This document shows positions 24,988-33,137 of a DNA stretch of 64,000 nt, one piece after another. The DNA is from Magnetospirillum gryphiswaldense MSR-1 v2 (lineage in GTDB: Bacteria > Pseudomonadota > Alphaproteobacteria > Rhodospirillales > Magnetospirillaceae), in assembly GCF_000513295.1 (NCBI RefSeq), contig NC_023065.1, forward strand, positions 1,612,001 to 1,676,000, given 5' to 3'. The position numbers and the translations under genes are program-made. Positions within the stretch are counted from its first letter, which is position 1. Every line of letters starts with the position of its first letter. Below the pieces are notes generated by a model that saw only the letters and a list, made by a program, of their open reading frames with translations, was not told the DNA's origin and searched no databases.

Positions 24988-25746
24988 ATGGGCGACAGTC
25001 TTACGCTAGCTATGACCCAGTCACGACAGGACATCAGGCCCAAGCTTGTCGTGCTGGATGACGACCCGGTTACCCGGTCGATGATCGCCCGGTATTTCTC
25101 GGATGAAGGCTTTCATGTGCGCGAAGCGCCGTCGGCGGCGGAATGCCGTACGTTGTTGAAAGCCTCTCCCCCCGATCTGCTGTTTGTCGATATCCATCTG
25201 CCCGATGCCAACGGCATCACCTTTGCCCAGGAAATCCGGGCCAGCAGTCAAGTCGGCATCATCTTCGTCACCCAGCGTGACAGCGAAATCGACCGTGTCG
25301 TCGGGCTTGAATCGGCAGGCGACGATTATGTCACCAAACCCATCAACCTGCGTGAACTGATGGCGCGGACGCGGTCTTTACTGCGTCGCAGCAAGCAGAG
25401 TTCGGGGCAGCCCAGCCATCGTTCCGTCATCACCTTCGGCGCCTATGTCATGGATATGACGCGACGGGAACTGTCGAGCAAAGGCGGCAAGCTGATCCCA
25501 TTGACGCGCGGCGAGTTCGATCTGCTGGCGGCGCTGGTCGAAGCCAACGGACGCCCGCTTTATCGCGACTTCCTGGCCGAGGTGGTGAACAACCGCACCG
25601 GCGGCGGCGAAGGCGCCCTGCGCACGGTGGATACCTTGGTGGCGCGGCTGCGCCGCAAGCTGAAGCAGGCTGAAGGCGACGAGACACTCATCATCACCAT
25701 GCCGGGCATCGGCTATCGTTTCGGTCGCGTCGTCGGACTTACCTGA
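24988..25746 (+). CDS. OmpR-family response regulator
   Basis: This 252-residue protein has a receiver domain (about residues 18-130) with phospho-acceptor Asp68 in FVDIHLPD and conserved Lys in VTKPINL, then an OmpR/PhoB winged-helix domain (about residues 150-248) ending in GIGYRFGRVV. It most likely works with the hybrid kinase encoded convergently; the two 3' ends overlap by eight bases. ATG 24988 follows a G-rich segment that lies in a hairpin. Confidence 0.92.
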   Translation: MGDSLTLAMTQSRQDIRPKLVVLDDDPVTRSMIARYFSDEGFHVREAPSAAECRTLLKASPPDLLFVDIHLPDANGITFAQEIRASSQVGIIFVTQRDSEIDRVVGLESAGDDYVTKPINLRELMARTRSLLRRSKQSSGQPSHRSVITFGAYVMDMTRRELSSKGGKLIPLTRGEFDLLAALVEANGRPLYRDFLAEVVNNRTGGGEGALRTVDTLVARLRRKLKQAEGDETLIITMPGIGYRFGRVVGLT

Positions 25747-28700
25747 GCGACCGGGCATAAACCGCCAAGGCCTTCAGCCCCGCCAACCGACCGGCACGCA
25801 ACTGCCCGAGCATGCCGGCCAATTCTGCCGACGCCACCTTGGCGGCGGCCTCGACCTCGGACGTCATCGCCCCCAATTCCATCATTCCCAACGAGCCCGA
25901 GGCGCTGCGCAGCCGGTGCGCCAAGGCCTGAACACCATCCCCGTCACCTGATTGAGCGGCTTTTTCCATGCTGGCGATCATATCGCGCGATACCTTTTGG
26001 AACAGACGGACGAGCCGGATCATTTCGCGCGGCCCCAAGATGTCCACTTGCTGGGCCAAAAACCCCAGATCCAGCCCCCTCGAACTCGGCAGCACCGGTC
26101 GGGCGGTCGCCGCCAGGCGTTGCAGGTCCTCAATCCTGACCGGCTTGGCCAAGGTTTCGTCCATGCCCGCGTCCAGACACTGACGGCGCACCTCGTCATT
26201 GAGATCTGCGGTCATGGCGATGATGACGGCCCGGCCCCGGCCCACCGCCGTTTCCTGATTCCTGATCCGCAGGGCGGCTTCCATGCCGTCCATATCCGGC
26301 ATGCGCACATCCATCAGCACGACGTCGAAAGCGGATTGAACCATGGCCGCCACCGCATCGTGACCGCAGGTGGCCACGCTGACGTGATGGCCCATATGGG
26401 TCAGCATGCGCTCGGCCACCCTTAGATTGATTTCCTCGTCATCGACCACCAGCACCCGCAAACCGCCGGACCCGGTGGGATCGGGCAAAGCCTCCACCGT
26501 CGGTGCCGGCGGCGGCGCCCCCCATTCGGCCCGGAAATCCAGGCGGAACCGGCTGCCGTTCGCCACCGTGCCGTCATGGACCAGTTCACCGCCCAGATGG
26601 GTGGCCATGCGCCGCGACAGAGCCAGTCCCAAACCGACACCGCCGAACCGGCGGGTGATGGAATCATCGGCCTGGATGAATTCACTGAAAATGGCTTGGC
26701 TCATGTCCGGCGGCACACCGATACCGGTATCGGTGACGGTGACGACCACATGGCGGCGGGTATCGTCGTCAGTGACCGCCACGGTGATGGTGACCGATCC
26801 GTGATCGGTGAATTTGACCGCGTTACCGATCAGGTTGAGCAGAATGCGCGACAATTTGACCCGATGGGACCGAATCCACATTTCTTCGTCCGGCAGAACC
26901 TCAAGAATCAGGGCCAGTCCCTTGGCCTCGGCATGGGGGCGCAGCATGGCGGCGATTTCCTGGGCCAGGGCCCGCATATCCATGTCATCCAGGGTGATTT
27001 CAGCGGATTGCGAGCCTTCGCGGCCATATTCAAGCACGCTTTCCACCAACAATCGCAAATTGTCGCCAGCCTGTTTGGCCCGCGACAGCGACTGGCGTTG
27101 ATCCTCGTCCAGCCGGCCCAGATCAAGGATCTGCAACATTCCCAGCAGACCGTTCAGCGGCGTCCGGATTTCATGACCGATGATCGCCAGAAACCGGGAT
27201 TTCATGGCATCGGCGGCTTCCGCCACCTCCTTGGCCCGGCGGGCGTGCTCTTCTCCGGCCAAGGCCCATTGCCGTGCGGCCTCGGCTTCGGCGGTTTTGG
27301 CGATCACCTGTTGGTTCAGTTCCGTCTCGCGCCGCTGGTGATAGGCCTTGCGCATCAGGATAAGGCCGATACCCCCGCCCAGGATCGACAACCACAGTAT
27401 GGAGCGGAACCACGCCGTCTGATACCAGGCCGGCAGAACGTGGATGCTCAGTTCCAGCGGTTCGCCCCATTTACCGATGCTGCTTGATCCCATCAGCTCC
27501 AGTTTATGCACGCCCGGCGGCAGATTGGTGTAGCTGGCGGTGCGGTGATAGGCATCGGTATAAACCCAATCGGATTTGTCCAGGCGATAGGCATAGCGAT
27601 TGCGTTCCGGAGCGGAATAATCGAGGGCGGAATAATCCACCTGGATACTGTCTTCGCCGGAGGGAATCTCGATTTTTTCAGCCAGCAGCACCGGCTGGCC
27701 GCCAACCCGTATGTCCGTCACCACCACCGGCGGACGGAAATCCCAACTGGGCAAGACGGTGGGGCGGACCACGGCCATGCCGCCGAAACCGCCCAAAACC
27801 AGGGTTCCATCCTTCATCCTTGTGGCCGATCCGGCCCAGAAGGTCTTGATCTCAAGCCCCTCGGGCGGGCCCAGGGTGCGCACTTTCAAGGTTTCCGGAT
27901 CAAGCACCGACAGGCCGTCGCCGGTGCCCGCGACCATCAGGCCGCCTTCCCCTTCGATGACCGACAAGACGGTGCCGCTACCCAATCCCTGGGCCCGGCC
28001 CACCCGCGTAAACCGCAACCGGCCTTCCTGTTCGGGATCGAAGATGCCGATGCCGTTGCCGGTGGCCAGCCACAAGCGGCCGAACCGATCCTCGGCGATG
28101 CGGTTGATGATGTCGCTGGGCAGGCTGGCGGAATCGCCGGGATCGTTGAAAATGCGCCTGAACCGACCGGATTGCGCGTCTTCCAGCAGATCGAAGCCGC
28201 GTTGGGTTCCGACCCATAAACGCTGGGCGCGGTCACGGTGGATGGCCTGTACGCTGTTGTCGCTCAGCGTCGTCGCGTCATCGCGCACCGACCGGTAGAA
28301 CCGCGGTATCCCGCCATCAGGGGGAATGTTGACCAACCCCATGGAGCCCCCGGCCCACAGCGAATCATGGTCGCGGTACAAGGTCTGGATGTTGCTATCC
28401 TTCAACGGCGCATAAGGCGTGACCCTGCCGGTTTTGATATCGATCTCGAACAATCCCGAAGGCAAACCGGCCCAAACCCGGCCATCGGCGGTATCGGCCA
28501 CCGCCTGAACCGGGCCGCCGGGCAACCCTTCGGGCCATGGTCCGGTGGCGGGCATGTCCGCCGACAACCTGGCGCCGGGCTCCACCAGAGCCAGACCGGA
28601 GACGCGGAAGCCCAGCCAGACGCCGCCATCATCGGCGGCGGCGACGCTGCGGACATCGTGTCCGGTCAGACCGCCGTCACGGTGGGTCACCACCGTGACG

Positions 28701-29728
28701 ACGCGCTGATTGGTGGGAATATGACGGTCGATGCCGCGTAGCGTCCCGGCCCAGACCAGCCCCGAGCGGTCCACCAGCAAATCGGTCACCGTGTCGTCGC
28801 CAAGACTGGTGGCGGCGGTGGGGTCGCGCCTCAGCCCGCGAACACGCTTGGACTCCAGGTGGAACTCACGGATGCCGCCACCATATTCGGCCACCCACAA
28901 CACCCCCGGCCTGGGCTCGGCAAAGGCGGTGACGCGATAATGCGACCGCTCCAGCACTGTTTCCAGCACGGCCTTGCCACCGTCGGCGGAGATGTAGCCG
29001 ACGGCGCCGTGGCGGGTGCCGAACCAGATCTTGCCGTTGACGTCCTCGTATAAAGCCGTGGCCGCGTCGATTCCCAGATCGACCGGCATGGTGACCGGCA
29101 CGAAAGTACCGCCGGGTTGGCGCTTCCAGATACCGCCGCCGGCCGTCCCCACCCAGATTCGCCCCCCCCGGTCGATCAATATGCTGGTGGCCTCGCCCTT
29201 GGGAATGCCTTCCTCGCGCTGCCAGGTCCGGGTCGCCACGTCCAGGCGGAAGGCCCCCTGACGGCTGGCGGTCCACACGCCCCCCTTGCCATCCCCGCAA
29301 ATGCCGTTCAAGCGCCCGAAATCACCCTGCGGATGGCGATAGGTGACGAAACCCTGGCTGGCTTCGTCAAACCGAACCACCACCCCCGACACGGTACTGA
29401 ACCAGGGGCGGCCATATTCGTCGGCAAAGGCCTTAGTGATGATGTTGTCGGGCAACGAATTGGGATCGTCGTCATCATGGCGGAACACCGTCATGCGATA
29501 ACCGTCCCAACGGGCGACGCCGCCGGGCGTCGCCGCCCAGATGAACCCCTTGCCGTCCTGAGCCAGACCCAAGGCCACCGGATAGGGCAATCCCTCGGCC
29601 GGGGTCAGATGGCTGAACACCGGGGGCACATTGTCATCCCAGGCATCCTGATTGGCGCGATCATCCCTGGCCAATGCCTGACCAACGGATAAAACGACGC
29701 ACAGCCACAATGCCAGGACGTTGCGCAC
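25739..29728 (-). CDS. Hybrid sensor histidine kinase with periplasmic Reg_prop propeller, receiver and Hpt
   Basis: This protein of about 1329 residues starts with a signal peptide (MRNVLALWLCVVLSVGQALA). A long periplasmic two-component-propeller region follows (about residues 35-700), with many repeats of the type DxxGxIWxGT, then a Y_Y_Y domain and a transmembrane helix near residue 795. The cytoplasmic part has HisKA with His852 in IIGHEIRTPLNG, HATPase_c (NLIGNAVKFTD), a receiver with Asp1140 in LMDVRMPDMDG, and a C-terminal Hpt with His1271 in ALAHRLRSASG. GTG 29728 has GGGAGG four bases upstream; GTG 29740 is an alternative. The likely output is the OmpR-type regulator next door. Confidence 0.9.
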   Translation of the reverse strand: MRNVLALWLCVVLSVGQALARDDRANQDAWDDNVPPVFSHLTPAEGLPYPVALGLAQDGKGFIWAATPGGVARWDGYRMTVFRHDDDDPNSLPDNIITKAFADEYGRPWFSTVSGVVVRFDEASQGFVTYRHPQGDFGRLNGICGDGKGGVWTASRQGAFRLDVATRTWQREEGIPKGEATSILIDRGGRIWVGTAGGGIWKRQPGGTFVPVTMPVDLGIDAATALYEDVNGKIWFGTRHGAVGYISADGGKAVLETVLERSHYRVTAFAEPRPGVLWVAEYGGGIREFHLESKRVRGLRRDPTAATSLGDDTVTDLLVDRSGLVWAGTLRGIDRHIPTNQRVVTVVTHRDGGLTGHDVRSVAAADDGGVWLGFRVSGLALVEPGARLSADMPATGPWPEGLPGGPVQAVADTADGRVWAGLPSGLFEIDIKTGRVTPYAPLKDSNIQTLYRDHDSLWAGGSMGLVNIPPDGGIPRFYRSVRDDATTLSDNSVQAIHRDRAQRLWVGTQRGFDLLEDAQSGRFRRIFNDPGDSASLPSDIINRIAEDRFGRLWLATGNGIGIFDPEQEGRLRFTRVGRAQGLGSGTVLSVIEGEGGLMVAGTGDGLSVLDPETLKVRTLGPPEGLEIKTFWAGSATRMKDGTLVLGGFGGMAVVRPTVLPSWDFRPPVVVTDIRVGGQPVLLAEKIEIPSGEDSIQVDYSALDYSAPERNRYAYRLDKSDWVYTDAYHRTASYTNLPPGVHKLELMGSSSIGKWGEPLELSIHVLPAWYQTAWFRSILWLSILGGGIGLILMRKAYHQRRETELNQQVIAKTAEAEAARQWALAGEEHARRAKEVAEAADAMKSRFLAIIGHEIRTPLNGLLGMLQILDLGRLDEDQRQSLSRAKQAGDNLRLLVESVLEYGREGSQSAEITLDDMDMRALAQEIAAMLRPHAEAKGLALILEVLPDEEMWIRSHRVKLSRILLNLIGNAVKFTDHGSVTITVAVTDDDTRRHVVVTVTDTGIGVPPDMSQAIFSEFIQADDSITRRFGGVGLGLALSRRMATHLGGELVHDGTVANGSRFRLDFRAEWGAPPPAPTVEALPDPTGSGGLRVLVVDDEEINLRVAERMLTHMGHHVSVATCGHDAVAAMVQSAFDVVLMDVRMPDMDGMEAALRIRNQETAVGRGRAVIIAMTADLNDEVRRQCLDAGMDETLAKPVRIEDLQRLAATARPVLPSSRGLDLGFLAQQVDILGPREMIRLVRLFQKVSRDMIASMEKAAQSGDGDGVQALAHRLRSASGSLGMMELGAMTSEVEAAAKVASAELAGMLGQLRAGRLAGLKALAVYARSLR

Positions 29729-30047
29729 ATCGCCTCCCACGGTTTTTGCCCTGCCCGGAGCCTATCCCCCAAGCACCCCAGGAAACAACCGCGGCCACGG
29801 CCCCTGTGAACGTTTATCGACACCTCGTCCATATCGCATCGACCGGATGATCAAGTCGATGATTTATCGGCAAAATCCTGTAAACATCGGTGGATGACCG
29901 TCCACAACAGGTCGACAGCACGTTCACAACGATCCTCTAGCGTGCCGAAAGTTTGTGGACGATGTCATCTTGATCCCATAGCCCCCCCGCATCGCACGGG
30001 GGGCTTTCTCTTGGCATCAAGTCACATCGAATGGAAGGGGCGATCAC
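29729..30047. other. Divergent intergenic region rich in inverted repeats
   Basis: This 319-base gap separates the hybrid kinase from the voltage-gated channel gene. It holds exact inverted repeats: CATCGAC/GTCGATG (29837-29843, 29855-29861), GTGGA/TCCAC (29890-29905) and the widely spaced TGTGAACGT/ACGTTCACA (29805-29813, 29920-29928). It ends with a terminator-like hairpin at 29980-30012. No protein-coding frame is convincing. It probably carries promoters for both flanking genes. Confidence 0.55.
29980..30012 (+). terminator. Terminator-like hairpin in the channel gene leader
   Basis: AGCCCCCC (29980-29987) pairs with GGGGGGCT (29998-30005) around a ten-base loop and is followed by TTTCTCTT. 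It lies 35 bases before the channel ATG, with no upstream plus-strand gene. It may end a small RNA or attenuate the channel transcript. Confidence 0.5.
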
Positions 30048-30860
30048 ATGAATTTCATTAAAAGCATTGTGGAAAATAAGATTTTCCAATGGTTTATCAT
30101 TGGCGTCATCCTGGTCAACGCTGGCATCCTCGGCCTGCTGACCATGGAGCATACGCCCGAGACCTTGCACGCTCTCGAAGTGCTCGACCAGATTTGCCTG
30201 GTCATCTTCTGCATTGAAATCGCCATGAAGCTGATCGTCATGCGTGGCGCCTTCTTCAAGGACGGCTGGAACGTGTTCGACGTCATCGTCGTCGGCATCG
30301 CCCTGGCTCCGGCCACCGGCGAATTGTCGGTACTGCGTGCCCTGCGCGTGCTGCGACTGATGCGCTTGGCCTCGGCCATTCCGTCCATGCGCCGGGTCAT
30401 CAACGGCATGTTCGCCGCCATCCCCGGCGGTGGTTCGGTCGCCGCCGTGCTGTTCGTCATGTATTACGTCGCCGCCATCATGGGCACCAACTTCTTCGGC
30501 AAGACGGTTCCCGCCCATTTCGGCGACCTGGGCACCACCTTCTTCACCTTGTTCAAGATGATGACGCTGGAAGGCTGGCCGGACATCGCCTCCGATGTGC
30601 TGGAGCACCATCCCAGGGCCTGGATCTTCTTCGTCATCTTCATCGTCTTCACCACCTTCACCACCTTGAACCTGCTGTTCGGCATCATCGTCGACGCCAT
30701 GGAGCAGGCCAAGGAAGCCGACGCCCGTCAGCAGATGGCCGAACAGGGCGTGGAAGTGACCGAGCAATCCAACGAAATGCGCCTGGCGATCATCGAAGAC
30801 GACGTCAAGCACATCAGGGCCTTGCTGACCAACATGTCGGCCAAGCCGGCTGGGGAATAA
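30048..30860 (+). CDS. NaChBac-type voltage-gated cation channel with calcium-type filter
   Basis: This 270-residue protein has the single-domain six-helix layout of bacterial voltage-gated channels, which assemble as tetramers. S4 carries four arginines at three-residue spacing (R97, R100, R103, R106 in LRALRVLRLMRL). The pore loop has TLEGWPD at 173-179, S6 is FVIFIVFTTFTTLNLLFGII, and the C-terminus is a polar helix likely to form a four-helix bundle. NaChBac and NavAb have TLESW; Gly176 and Asp179 instead resemble the EGW filters of eukaryotic Cav domains, so Ca2+ selectivity is predicted. A GGAAGGGG site precedes the ATG. The next gene starts five bases downstream. Confidence 0.9.
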   Translation: MNFIKSIVENKIFQWFIIGVILVNAGILGLLTMEHTPETLHALEVLDQICLVIFCIEIAMKLIVMRGAFFKDGWNVFDVIVVGIALAPATGELSVLRALRVLRLMRLASAIPSMRRVINGMFAAIPGGGSVAAVLFVMYYVAAIMGTNFFGKTVPAHFGDLGTTFFTLFKMMTLEGWPDIASDVLEHHPRAWIFFVIFIVFTTFTTLNLLFGIIVDAMEQAKEADARQQMAEQGVEVTEQSNEMRLAIIEDDVKHIRALLTNMSAKPAGE

Positions 30861-30865
30861 CCAAA

Positions 30866-31990
30866 ATGGCTTTCTGGCGCGGGCTGCTGTCCACATCGGC
30901 AAGTGTATTGACAGTGATGGTGGCCAGTGCGGCGGCGACTTCCGCCGCCGAGCCGGGGCGCGGGCAGGTGTTTCACAGCATCTTGCAACGCTACCTGGAC
31001 CAGGAAGATTTGAATGGCGGGGTGCTGCTGGTGTCGGCACCCCACCACCGCGAGGTCGCAGCCTTGGGCTTCGCCGACGACCGGACCAATACCCGCATCA
31101 CCGCCGACAGCCGCTTTTACGTGGCTTCGGTGGGCAAGATGGTGACCGCTACCACCGCCCTGCAATTGGTGGAAGAAGGCGCCCTGTCGCTTGACGCCCC
31201 GGTGCTGGGATTGGTGGGCAGCGTGCCCGACATCGCCAAACTGCCCAATGTCGGCAAGGCCAATGTCGAGCAATTGCTCAACCATTCCTCGGGCATTGCC
31301 GATTACCTGACCGACAAGTTTTCCGAGGATTTTCACGCCAACCCGACGCGCCTGACCGCGGCCAGGGTGCTGCCTTATGCCTATAAGGAAAAGCCGCCCG
31401 GCCAGACCGGTAAGGTCCATGAATACAGCAACAGCAATTATGTGCTGTTGGGCGACATCATCGCCAAGGCCGATGGTGGTTCGTTCGAGGAATCCATCCG
31501 CCGCCGCGTGCTCAAGCGGGCCGGTATGGACAACACCACCGTGGGGGCCGATCCCAAGGACCGCACGCTGGCCCATGGCTACGCCGATTTGGAAGAAACC
31601 GGCGAAAACCAGGATGTCAGCCGTTATGCCTGGAACAGCCCGCTGGGCGACGGGCCGCTGGTGACCACCGCCGACGATCTAGAACGCTTTCTGTTCGCCC
31701 TGTTCCGCGACGGCAAGCTGCTGAAGCCGGCCACCTTGGCACGCATGACCGCGCCGTCCAAGCTGGAGGCGGAATACGGCCTGGGCGTCGAACTGGGCCA
31801 CGACCGTTGGGGCGATTGGTACGGCCATTCCGGCCTGGAAGACGGCTTCGAGGCCGAAACCCGCTATTACCCCGGTCGCAAGGCCGTGCTGGTGGTCATG
31901 GTCAACGGCAACACCGAATCGGAAAAATCCATCCTGGACCGGGCGGCGGCGGCACTGTTCCGCGCCACATCGGGCGACACGAGGAAATAA
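30866..31990 (+). CDS. Periplasmic beta-lactamase-fold serine hydrolase
   Basis: This 374-residue secreted protein (signal peptide about residues 1-28) belongs to the beta-lactamase class C/DD-peptidase/esterase family. The catalytic motifs are S88-V-G-K91, Y187-S-N189 and H321-S-G. Such proteins act as D-aminopeptidases, esterases or peptidoglycan hydrolases; the sequence does not show which. It lies five bases after the channel gene and four before the TMEM43-like gene, so all three probably form one transcript. Confidence 0.85.
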   Translation: MAFWRGLLSTSASVLTVMVASAAATSAAEPGRGQVFHSILQRYLDQEDLNGGVLLVSAPHHREVAALGFADDRTNTRITADSRFYVASVGKMVTATTALQLVEEGALSLDAPVLGLVGSVPDIAKLPNVGKANVEQLLNHSSGIADYLTDKFSEDFHANPTRLTAARVLPYAYKEKPPGQTGKVHEYSNSNYVLLGDIIAKADGGSFEESIRRRVLKRAGMDNTTVGADPKDRTLAHGYADLEETGENQDVSRYAWNSPLGDGPLVTTADDLERFLFALFRDGKLLKPATLARMTAPSKLEAEYGLGVELGHDRWGDWYGHSGLEDGFEAETRYYPGRKAVLVVMVNGNTESEKSILDRAAAALFRATSGDTRK

Positions 31991-31994
31991 GGCC

Positions 31995-33137
31995 ATGGCC
32001 GACGACGACAGCTTCACCGTCACCCAACACCGCAACTGGTTTTCCCGCTTCGGCGATTCCATCGCCGGGGTGATCGTCGGCCTGCTGCTGTTCGCCGTCA
32101 GCTTCGTCGTGTTGTTCTGGAACGAATCACGGGCGGTCGACGCCATCACCGCCCTTGATCTGGGGGCGAAGACGGTGGTGTCGGTCAGCGCCGAGCGCGT
32201 CGATCCCGCCAATCAGGGCCGCCTGATCCACCTGTCCGGCCCGGTGACGGTGCCCGCCGCCTTGGAAGACAAGCAATTCCGCGTCAGCGCCGCCAACGCC
32301 CTGCGCCTGTCCCGTCAGGTCGAGATGTACCAGTGGGTCGAGACCGAGGAACAAAAGACCGAGAAATCCGTGGGCGGCGGCGAGACCACCACCACCACCT
32401 ACCGCTATTCCCGCCAATGGCGTGAAGGCGCGGTGGAGTCCAGCCGGTTCAAGCGGCCCGAGGGGCACCACAACCCGGCCATGCACCATACCTCGCGCCG
32501 GATCGACGTCCAGGGGGCCAAGATCGGCGCCTTCACCCTGGACCACAGCCAGATCACCCAGTTGGATGCCTTCGAGCCGCTGCCGGTGACCGGCGACACC
32601 CCCGCCCCACAAGGATTCCGGTGGGTGGGCGAGCAGCTTTATCGCGGCACCTCACCCCAGGATCCGCAGGTAGGCGACCTGCGCGTCGGCTTTTCCATGG
32701 TGCCGGCCACAAGCCTGAGCGTGGTGGCGGCGCAATCGGGCAGCACCTTGGCCGAATACACCACCAATCAGGGCTATGGCATCAATCTGTCCGCTATCGG
32801 CACCCACACCGCCGCCGCCATGTTCACCCAGGCGAAACGGGACGAGGCGACACTGACCTGGATTTTGCGCGGCGCCGGCTTTTTGCTGATGCTGTTCGGG
32901 CTGATGCTGATGAGCAGCCCGCTGCATTGGCTGGCCAGCCTGCTGCCCTTGCTGGAATCCCTGGTGTCGGCGGCCACCTTCGTCATGGCCCTGGCCGTCG
33001 CCATCCCTTTGACCCTGGTCACCATCGCCCTGGCCTGGCTGACCTATCGTCCCTTGCTGGCGGGGGGGCTGATCCTGGGCGGATTGGCCGGCGCCTTCAT
33101 CATCAAACGCATGGCCGGCAAGAAAGTCGCCACCTGA
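31995..33137 (+). CDS. TMEM43 (LUMA)-family membrane protein
   Basis: This 380-residue protein has one N-terminal transmembrane helix (IAGVIVGLLLFAVSFVVLFW followed by NESRAV), a large soluble domain (about residues 55-285) and three or four C-terminal hydrophobic helices. The layout and the NESRAVDAI region match the TMEM43 family, known in animals as the nuclear-envelope protein LUMA and found in scattered bacteria with unknown roles. A Thr-rich stretch (GGGETTTTTYRYSRQW) interrupts the soluble part. It follows the serine hydrolase by four bases, which ties it to the channel operon. Confidence 0.8.
   Translation: MADDDSFTVTQHRNWFSRFGDSIAGVIVGLLLFAVSFVVLFWNESRAVDAITALDLGAKTVVSVSAERVDPANQGRLIHLSGPVTVPAALEDKQFRVSAANALRLSRQVEMYQWVETEEQKTEKSVGGGETTTTTYRYSRQWREGAVESSRFKRPEGHHNPAMHHTSRRIDVQGAKIGAFTLDHSQITQLDAFEPLPVTGDTPAPQGFRWVGEQLYRGTSPQDPQVGDLRVGFSMVPATSLSVVAAQSGSTLAEYTTNQGYGINLSAIGTHTAAAMFTQAKRDEATLTWILRGAGFLLMLFGLMLMSSPLHWLASLLPLLESLVSAATFVMALAVAIPLTLVTIALAWLTYRPLLAGGLILGGLAGAFIIKRMAGKKVAT

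Follow-up and report, generated by a model that had tools for sequence, protein, structure and literature searches.

What does the single Nav/Cav-type gene found in a 4,365,796-base bacterial genome conduct, and on what kind of channel did its filter evolve? The protein encoded in the window (the whole stretch of 64,000 nucleotides that was analysed) groups with NavMs and carries four S4 arginines, yet its filter reads TLEGW instead of the TLESW of Na+ channels.

A one-domain channel with a TLEGWPD filter

The channel gene and its parts are the following.

30048..30860, + strand: channel gene, 270 aa with an ATG start; one six-helix subunit of a presumed homotetramer
30336..30365, + strand: S4 voltage sensor, R97-R100-R103-R106 (sequence and alignment)
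30528..30563, + strand: P1 pore helix, residues 161-172 (AlphaFold2 model)
30564..30584, + strand: selectivity filter, T173-L-E-G-W-P-D179 (translation)
30573-30575 and 30582-30584, + strand: codons of G176 and D179, within the filter
30576..30608, + strand: P2 pore helix, residues 177-187 (AlphaFold2 model)
30612..30743, + strand: S6 and its cytoplasmic continuation, residues 189-232, with the S6 glycine G212 (AlphaFold2 model)
30771..30839, + strand: C-terminal helix, residues 242-264 (AlphaFold2 model)

The protein is a one-domain member of the bacterial Nav/Cav superfamily. Pfam Ion_trans (PF00520) matches residues 10-224 as a single domain (E 3.6e-46), and the S4 arginines stand at every third position (97, 100, 103 and 106), the first three being invariant and R106 nearly invariant in a 45-row alignment. 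The AlphaFold2 model, for which 44 proteins from named loci served as input, has a mean pLDDT of 88 and a pTM of 0.64; its helices can be read as six transmembrane segments, P1, P2, a long S6 and a C-terminal helix, the naming of segments being an interpretation. Translation, Pfam and model thus bear out the open reading frame, four-arginine S4, six helices and C-terminal helix of the original prediction, and its TLEGWPD filter and numbering of G176 and D179 are correct, the motif beginning at residue 173. Compared with four relatives, the channel gene has a dN/dS of 0.10 to 0.14, which indicates that it is under purifying selection and maintained. The other Ion_trans match of the genome has a YGD motif and a tail that, judged by eye, resembles a cyclic-nucleotide-binding one.

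The filter compared with characterised channels

The best match to the window protein is NavMs of Magnetococcus marinus (PDB 5hvx, E 1.5e-70), in the same TxExW frame, and the six best solved structures in a Foldseek search with the window model are all NavMs (42-46% identity in the NavMs rows). NavMs has the filter TLESWSM; the window channel has glycine at position 4 (Gly4), proline at position 6 and aspartate at position 7, and its P2 stretch is one residue shorter, the alignment opening a one-residue gap after position 6. A P2 shorter by one residue is shared with the AnclNav-like rows of our alignment.

CavMr of Meiothermus ruber, a native Ca2+ channel of the AnclNav group, has the filter 183-TLEGWVD-189 (PMC7041947). 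As had been predicted, G176 falls on its filter glycine, at position 4, and D179 on position 7, so that both channels read TLEGW-x-D, with Pro178 at position 6 in one and valine in the other. The proposed dependence of CavMr on this glycine agrees with published work: G4S and G4D are reported to cause a strong drop in Ca2+ selectivity and V6T a smaller one, NavPp D4G gains divalent selectivity, and Gly4 is presented as a key determinant of Ca2+ selectivity in both channels (PMC7041947). The parallel drawn with the EGW of eukaryotic Cav domains I and III also holds, Gly4 being described as conserved there (PMC7041947). The domain I filter of Cav3.2 (alpha-1H, 9ayg), TLEGWVDI, aligns to the window filter without a gap in the filter. 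The likeness to eukaryotic Cav domains I and III lies in Gly4; unlike these channels, the window channel has one domain, and hence an identical filter in each subunit. EGWP is present in domain III of Cav1 and Cav2. Our literature search left this last motif unconfirmed, and the short-segment matches in the PDB, among the 60 of 110 listed, were bacterial channels and chimeras of them.

Does Gly4 then make a Ca2+ channel? For the ions carried by NavMs and for a general review of these channels we drew on two further papers (PMC10120453, PMC4972137). The review ranks glycine at filter position 4 as Ca2+-selective in one-domain channels, and NavMs currents are reported for Na+ and Li+ only. In NavAb, the engineered S178G substitution ('LivAb', PDB 9uc3) places TLEGW on a NavAb-type backbone, as in the window channel, and is reported to give a Li+-selective channel with PCa/PNa <0.01 (PMC12919392). 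Since S178G is nearly impermeable to Ca2+ and NavMs passes only Na+ and Li+, Gly176 alone cannot carry the Ca2+ conclusion; the argument also needs Asp7 and the loss of one residue from the P2 stretch. Position 7, which is Asp in the window channel, is moreover the site at which the NavAb mutation M181A admits Ca2+ (PMC12919392). The native Ca2+ channel of the original prediction therefore stands as far as Gly4 and Asp7 match CavMr, and falls short in that Gly4 by itself is insufficient in a NavAb-type backbone. As to D179 and its added negative charge, CavMr does have Asp at position 7, but this residue is dispensable in CavMr itself, where D7M keeps its selectivity (PMC7041947). Channels in which the filters of CavMr and NavAb were swapped are reported to have shown no currents (PMC7041947).

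These data bear on two other scenarios. The first is a channel that, as NavMs does, still passes monovalent Na+ and Li+, its mouth being widened as in LivAb. It would be in line with a backbone that is sister to NavMs and with the behaviour of NavAb S178G; we regard it as improbable, since LivAb retains Met7 and a full-length P2 (PMC12919392), where the window channel has Asp7 and one residue fewer. Alternatively, the mouth may bind Ca2+ without passing it selectively, which would make the protein either a cation channel of low selectivity or a Na+ channel that external Ca2+ blocks. NavPp, with the filter TLEDWTD, is reported to prefer Na+ and to be blocked by Ca2+ (PMC7041947), the position 7 mutant NavAb M181A is described as non-selective with an approximately 10-fold preference for Ca2+ (PMC12919392), and position 6, at which V6T lowers the selectivity of CavMr, is Pro rather than Val in the window channel. 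This second scenario is unlikely, although it deserves more weight than the first; Gly4 rather than Asp4 places the window filter with the Ca2+-selective class.

Place of the TxEGWP channels on the tree

The filter columns were taken out before any tree was built. A quick tree of 149 rows places the window protein in a set of 31 rows that all have a TxEGWP filter (support 100), itself nested in a set of 36 that includes five TLESWSMG proteins (support 95). A careful tree of 77 chosen rows, whose bootstrap was not yet fully settled, gives the TxEGWP clade of 31 at 100/100 and its 36-row union with the NavMs-like rows at 100/98. One of the latter rows (L072) is NavMs, with 274 of 275 aligned residues identical to PDB 5hvx and the mismatch at the very start of the alignment. 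Among other positions, the clade differs from the NavMs-like rows at residues 164-166, 181 and 206.

The same trees allow us to consider whether the window lineage acquired a member of the CavMr/NavPp (AnclNav) group, which would account for Gly4 and Asp7 as in CavMr and for the shortened P2 of AnclNav-like rows. Forcing the clade together with five TxEDWTD rows lowered the log-likelihood by 22 (AU test, p = 0.012). These rows count as AnclNav-like on the strength of their filter only. As neither CavMr nor NavPp is in the tree, the test against AnclNav is by proxy; both groups used in AU tests were chosen with the quick tree already in view. The length of the loop points in the same direction: from the filter Thr to the S6 Gly there are 39 residues in the window channel and 40 in NavMs, taking G212 as the matching S6 glycine, which is our interpretation, against 57 in CavMr by the numbering of PMC7041947 (Thr183 and Gly240, the latter matched there to NaChBac Gly229). 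The L6 loop extension with a disulfide that a review describes for CavMr is absent from the window channel, whose only cysteines, 50 and 55, lie outside the pore. Given the 100/98 union with NavMs, the AU test and the long CavMr stretch that the window channel does not have, we tend to exclude membership of this group. Uniting the 31 rows in a single clade with 15 further rows that have a short filter (Gly4 in 13, Ala4 in two) was rejected as well (log-likelihood down 52, p = 0.00076).

The best reading of these trees is that the TxEGWP filter would have arisen on a NavAb/NavMs-type backbone, separately from the AnclNav-like channels. Outside the clade, nine actinobacterial homologues with alanine at filter position 4 (TGEAWPD/E; L105-L111, L113 and L122) form one clade of their own.

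Glycine at position 4 is usually accompanied by an acidic residue at 7 or 8

If Gly4 is insufficient, what accompanies it in nature? We retained the 219 of 231 aligned homologues whose filter combines E or D at position 3 with W at position 5, dropping the other twelve. Of the 101 Gly4 filters, 93 carry an acidic residue at position 7 or 8, against 0 of the 97 Ser4 filters. Part of this set comes from a scan of named genomes (the best 80 of 440 relatives, ranked by the window pore), and this part is rich in Gly4 because one of the two scan patterns demands EGW; the patterns place no demand on positions 6-8. Of the phylum search, the loci that it listed were used, along with two further sets. 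Among the class-search homologues, which were not chosen by filter and from which the weakest matches were left out, Gly4 is found in 24 of 111, and the acidic residue in 24/24 Gly4 and 0/70 Ser4 filters. For all loci outside the named genomes, the counts are 38/42 and 0/93, and each of the four exceptions is the leading gene of a tandem pair. In the whole set all eight exceptions read TTEGW. Seven of them stand first in a tandem pair; the eighth, L152, lies in a locus where no second channel gene was seen. Met7 occurs in a single Gly4 filter of the 101 sampled, together with Glu at position 8, which further disfavours the monovalent scenario.

How often did this association arise? The best quick tree implies about 20 Gly/Ser swaps, and of 20 independent pairs 18 to 20 agree and 0 oppose (500 pairings). 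Branches of this 219-row tree are often weak, however (61 of 216 inner branches are starred, and L224 and L240 are very long); keeping well-supported branches alone leaves 5 independent pairs, of which on average 4.8 agree and 0 oppose (p 0.0625), a number too small to give a formal result. A tie between Gly4 and the one-residue shortening was also considered and set aside: the raw counts of short and long filter stretches are 61/40 for Gly4 and 1/96 for Ser4, and the independent pairs are mostly tied, showing no clear coupling. Channel homologues in small alphaproteobacterial genomes (L228, L229, L230, L233, L237 and L238) have the filter TLSSWE, in which the key glutamate of position 3 is replaced by Ser and a Glu stands at position 6.

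What chiefly makes a Ca2+ channel the likeliest reading is the acidic residue that accompanies Gly4 at position 7 or 8, rather than Gly4 by itself. On balance, we favour a homotetrameric channel that is probably Ca2+-permeable or Ca2+-selective, and whose calcium-type filter evolved on a NavMs-type backbone. Its ion selectivity, gating, tetrameric state and the roles of single residues we infer as follows. Depolarisation would move the four-arginine S4, the S4-S5 linker would pass this motion on and S6 would open, as judged from the family. Gly176 would take away the serine side chain that lines the mouth of Na+ channels, giving a wider mouth in which the Glu175 ring is exposed. Asp179 would stand in place of the methionine that helps to keep divalent ions out of NavAb, and would place a negative ring of four charges at the mouth, while Pro178 and the one-residue shortening may re-set the start of the P2 helix. 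As to the cellular role, Ca2+ entry upon depolarisation, perhaps for motility, is a guess.

Tandem channel-gene pairs

Ten adjacent pairs on the same strand, with the A type first (L095-L103 and L115), account for 20 of the 31 clade members and occur in Magnetococcales, Thiomargarita, Azonexus, spirochaetes and alphaproteobacteria. Taking the first in-frame ATG as the start codon, the second gene begins 3 bases past the first stop in seven pairs, overlaps it by 4 bases in two and lies 24 bases away in one. The first genes form one clade (100/98), and the second genes one side of an unsupported branch (66/4). In 7 of the 10 pairs the filters have diverged: the first gene has TTEGWP plus T, S or N, its partner T(M/S)EGWPD. 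The remaining three pairs, which come from Azonexus and from two near-identical alphaproteobacterial bins, have TLEGWPD in both genes. The eleven single-gene members, including the window channel, are the sister set of the pairs (98/84) and all have Asp7.

Close pairing and shared descent suggest that the paired subunits may be co-assembled. Adjacency alone proves nothing on this point, because tandem pairs in three other genomes (L180, L184 and L186) have TLESWSM in both genes, with undiverged filters. We tentatively propose, as something short of an even chance, that the co-inherited pairs build a 2+2 heterotetramer, of which the window gene would be the single-subunit sister, its branch having stayed homotetrameric. 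Literature searches for paired BacNav genes, judged from the titles listed (two in one search, 8 of 281 in another), found nothing relevant. Elsewhere on the tree, L224 has two adjacent, distant channel genes on very long branches (minus-strand frame coordinates 607-1464 and 1475-2332), whose TFDDW and TLEGW filters recall the Asp/Gly alternation of Cav domains.

Neighbouring genes and distribution

The surroundings of the channel gene contain the following features.

25739-29740, - strand: hybrid sensor kinase with regulator propeller, receiver and Hpt domains, upstream of the channel on the opposite strand
29983-30003: terminator-like GC hairpin, about 45 bases before the channel start
30866..31990, + strand: serine hydrolase with a beta-lactamase fold (PF00144), beginning 5 bases past the channel
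31995-33137: bacterial TMEM43-family membrane protein (PF07787, E 9e-83), two genes past the channel

The PF00144 hydrolase scores far below the NCBIfam cut-offs for true class C beta-lactamases. The three nearest relatives have it downstream of their channel too, but a search of 17 further clade loci, some of them stopping near the channel gene, did not find it; the hydrolase is probably not part of the channel. A conserved regulatory leader was considered for the region before the gene and discarded: the hairpin is at chance level in our scan, Rfam gave no credible match and the region is poorly conserved in the three relatives. The fold of the leader has a z of -2.5.

Channel matches with an E value of 1e-10 or better were found in 8 of 55 genomes of the family, 111 of 385 of the class and 128 of 398 of the phylum. 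The channel gene is also present in Paramagnetospirillum marisnigri SP-1 (Rhodospirillales, Magnetospirillaceae according to NCBI). None of the 12 other genomes of the window's genus that were searched, not all of them complete, has a TxEGWP channel, and the gene is thus patchy; two of the genus genomes have matches, with either a TLESW filter or no such filter. Thirty-eight plasmid records match the channel, none of them at 60% identity or above.

A calcium-type filter beside NavMs

According to a paper of February 2026, CavMr remains the only identified prokaryotic Cav, and Gly4 does not turn NavAb into a Ca2+ channel (PMC12919392). In the literature searched, which covered few subscription papers, we found no description of the TxEGWP clade, of the coupling of Gly4 to an acidic residue or of the tandem pairs. 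Our best guess is a native Ca2+ channel, for a reason partly different from that first given, and the main interest of the locus lies in a calcium-type filter placed beside NavMs. The clade would supply what this puzzle lacks: a filter of calcium type that occurs naturally on the backbone of a strict Na+ channel, NavMs, for which many structures have been solved. As its Gly4 travels with Pro6, the one-residue shortening and, in the eleven single-gene members, Asp7, the difference from NavMs amounts to a small set of changes that could be grafted. If the 2+2 arrangement of the tandem pairs is true, their alternating TTEGWPT/S/N and TxEGWPD filters would mimic the asymmetric pore of eukaryotic Cav channels, and the pairs may be a model for the origin of asymmetric Ca2+ pores. 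The window channel itself would offer a natural test of the conversion between Na+ and Ca2+ channel kinds.
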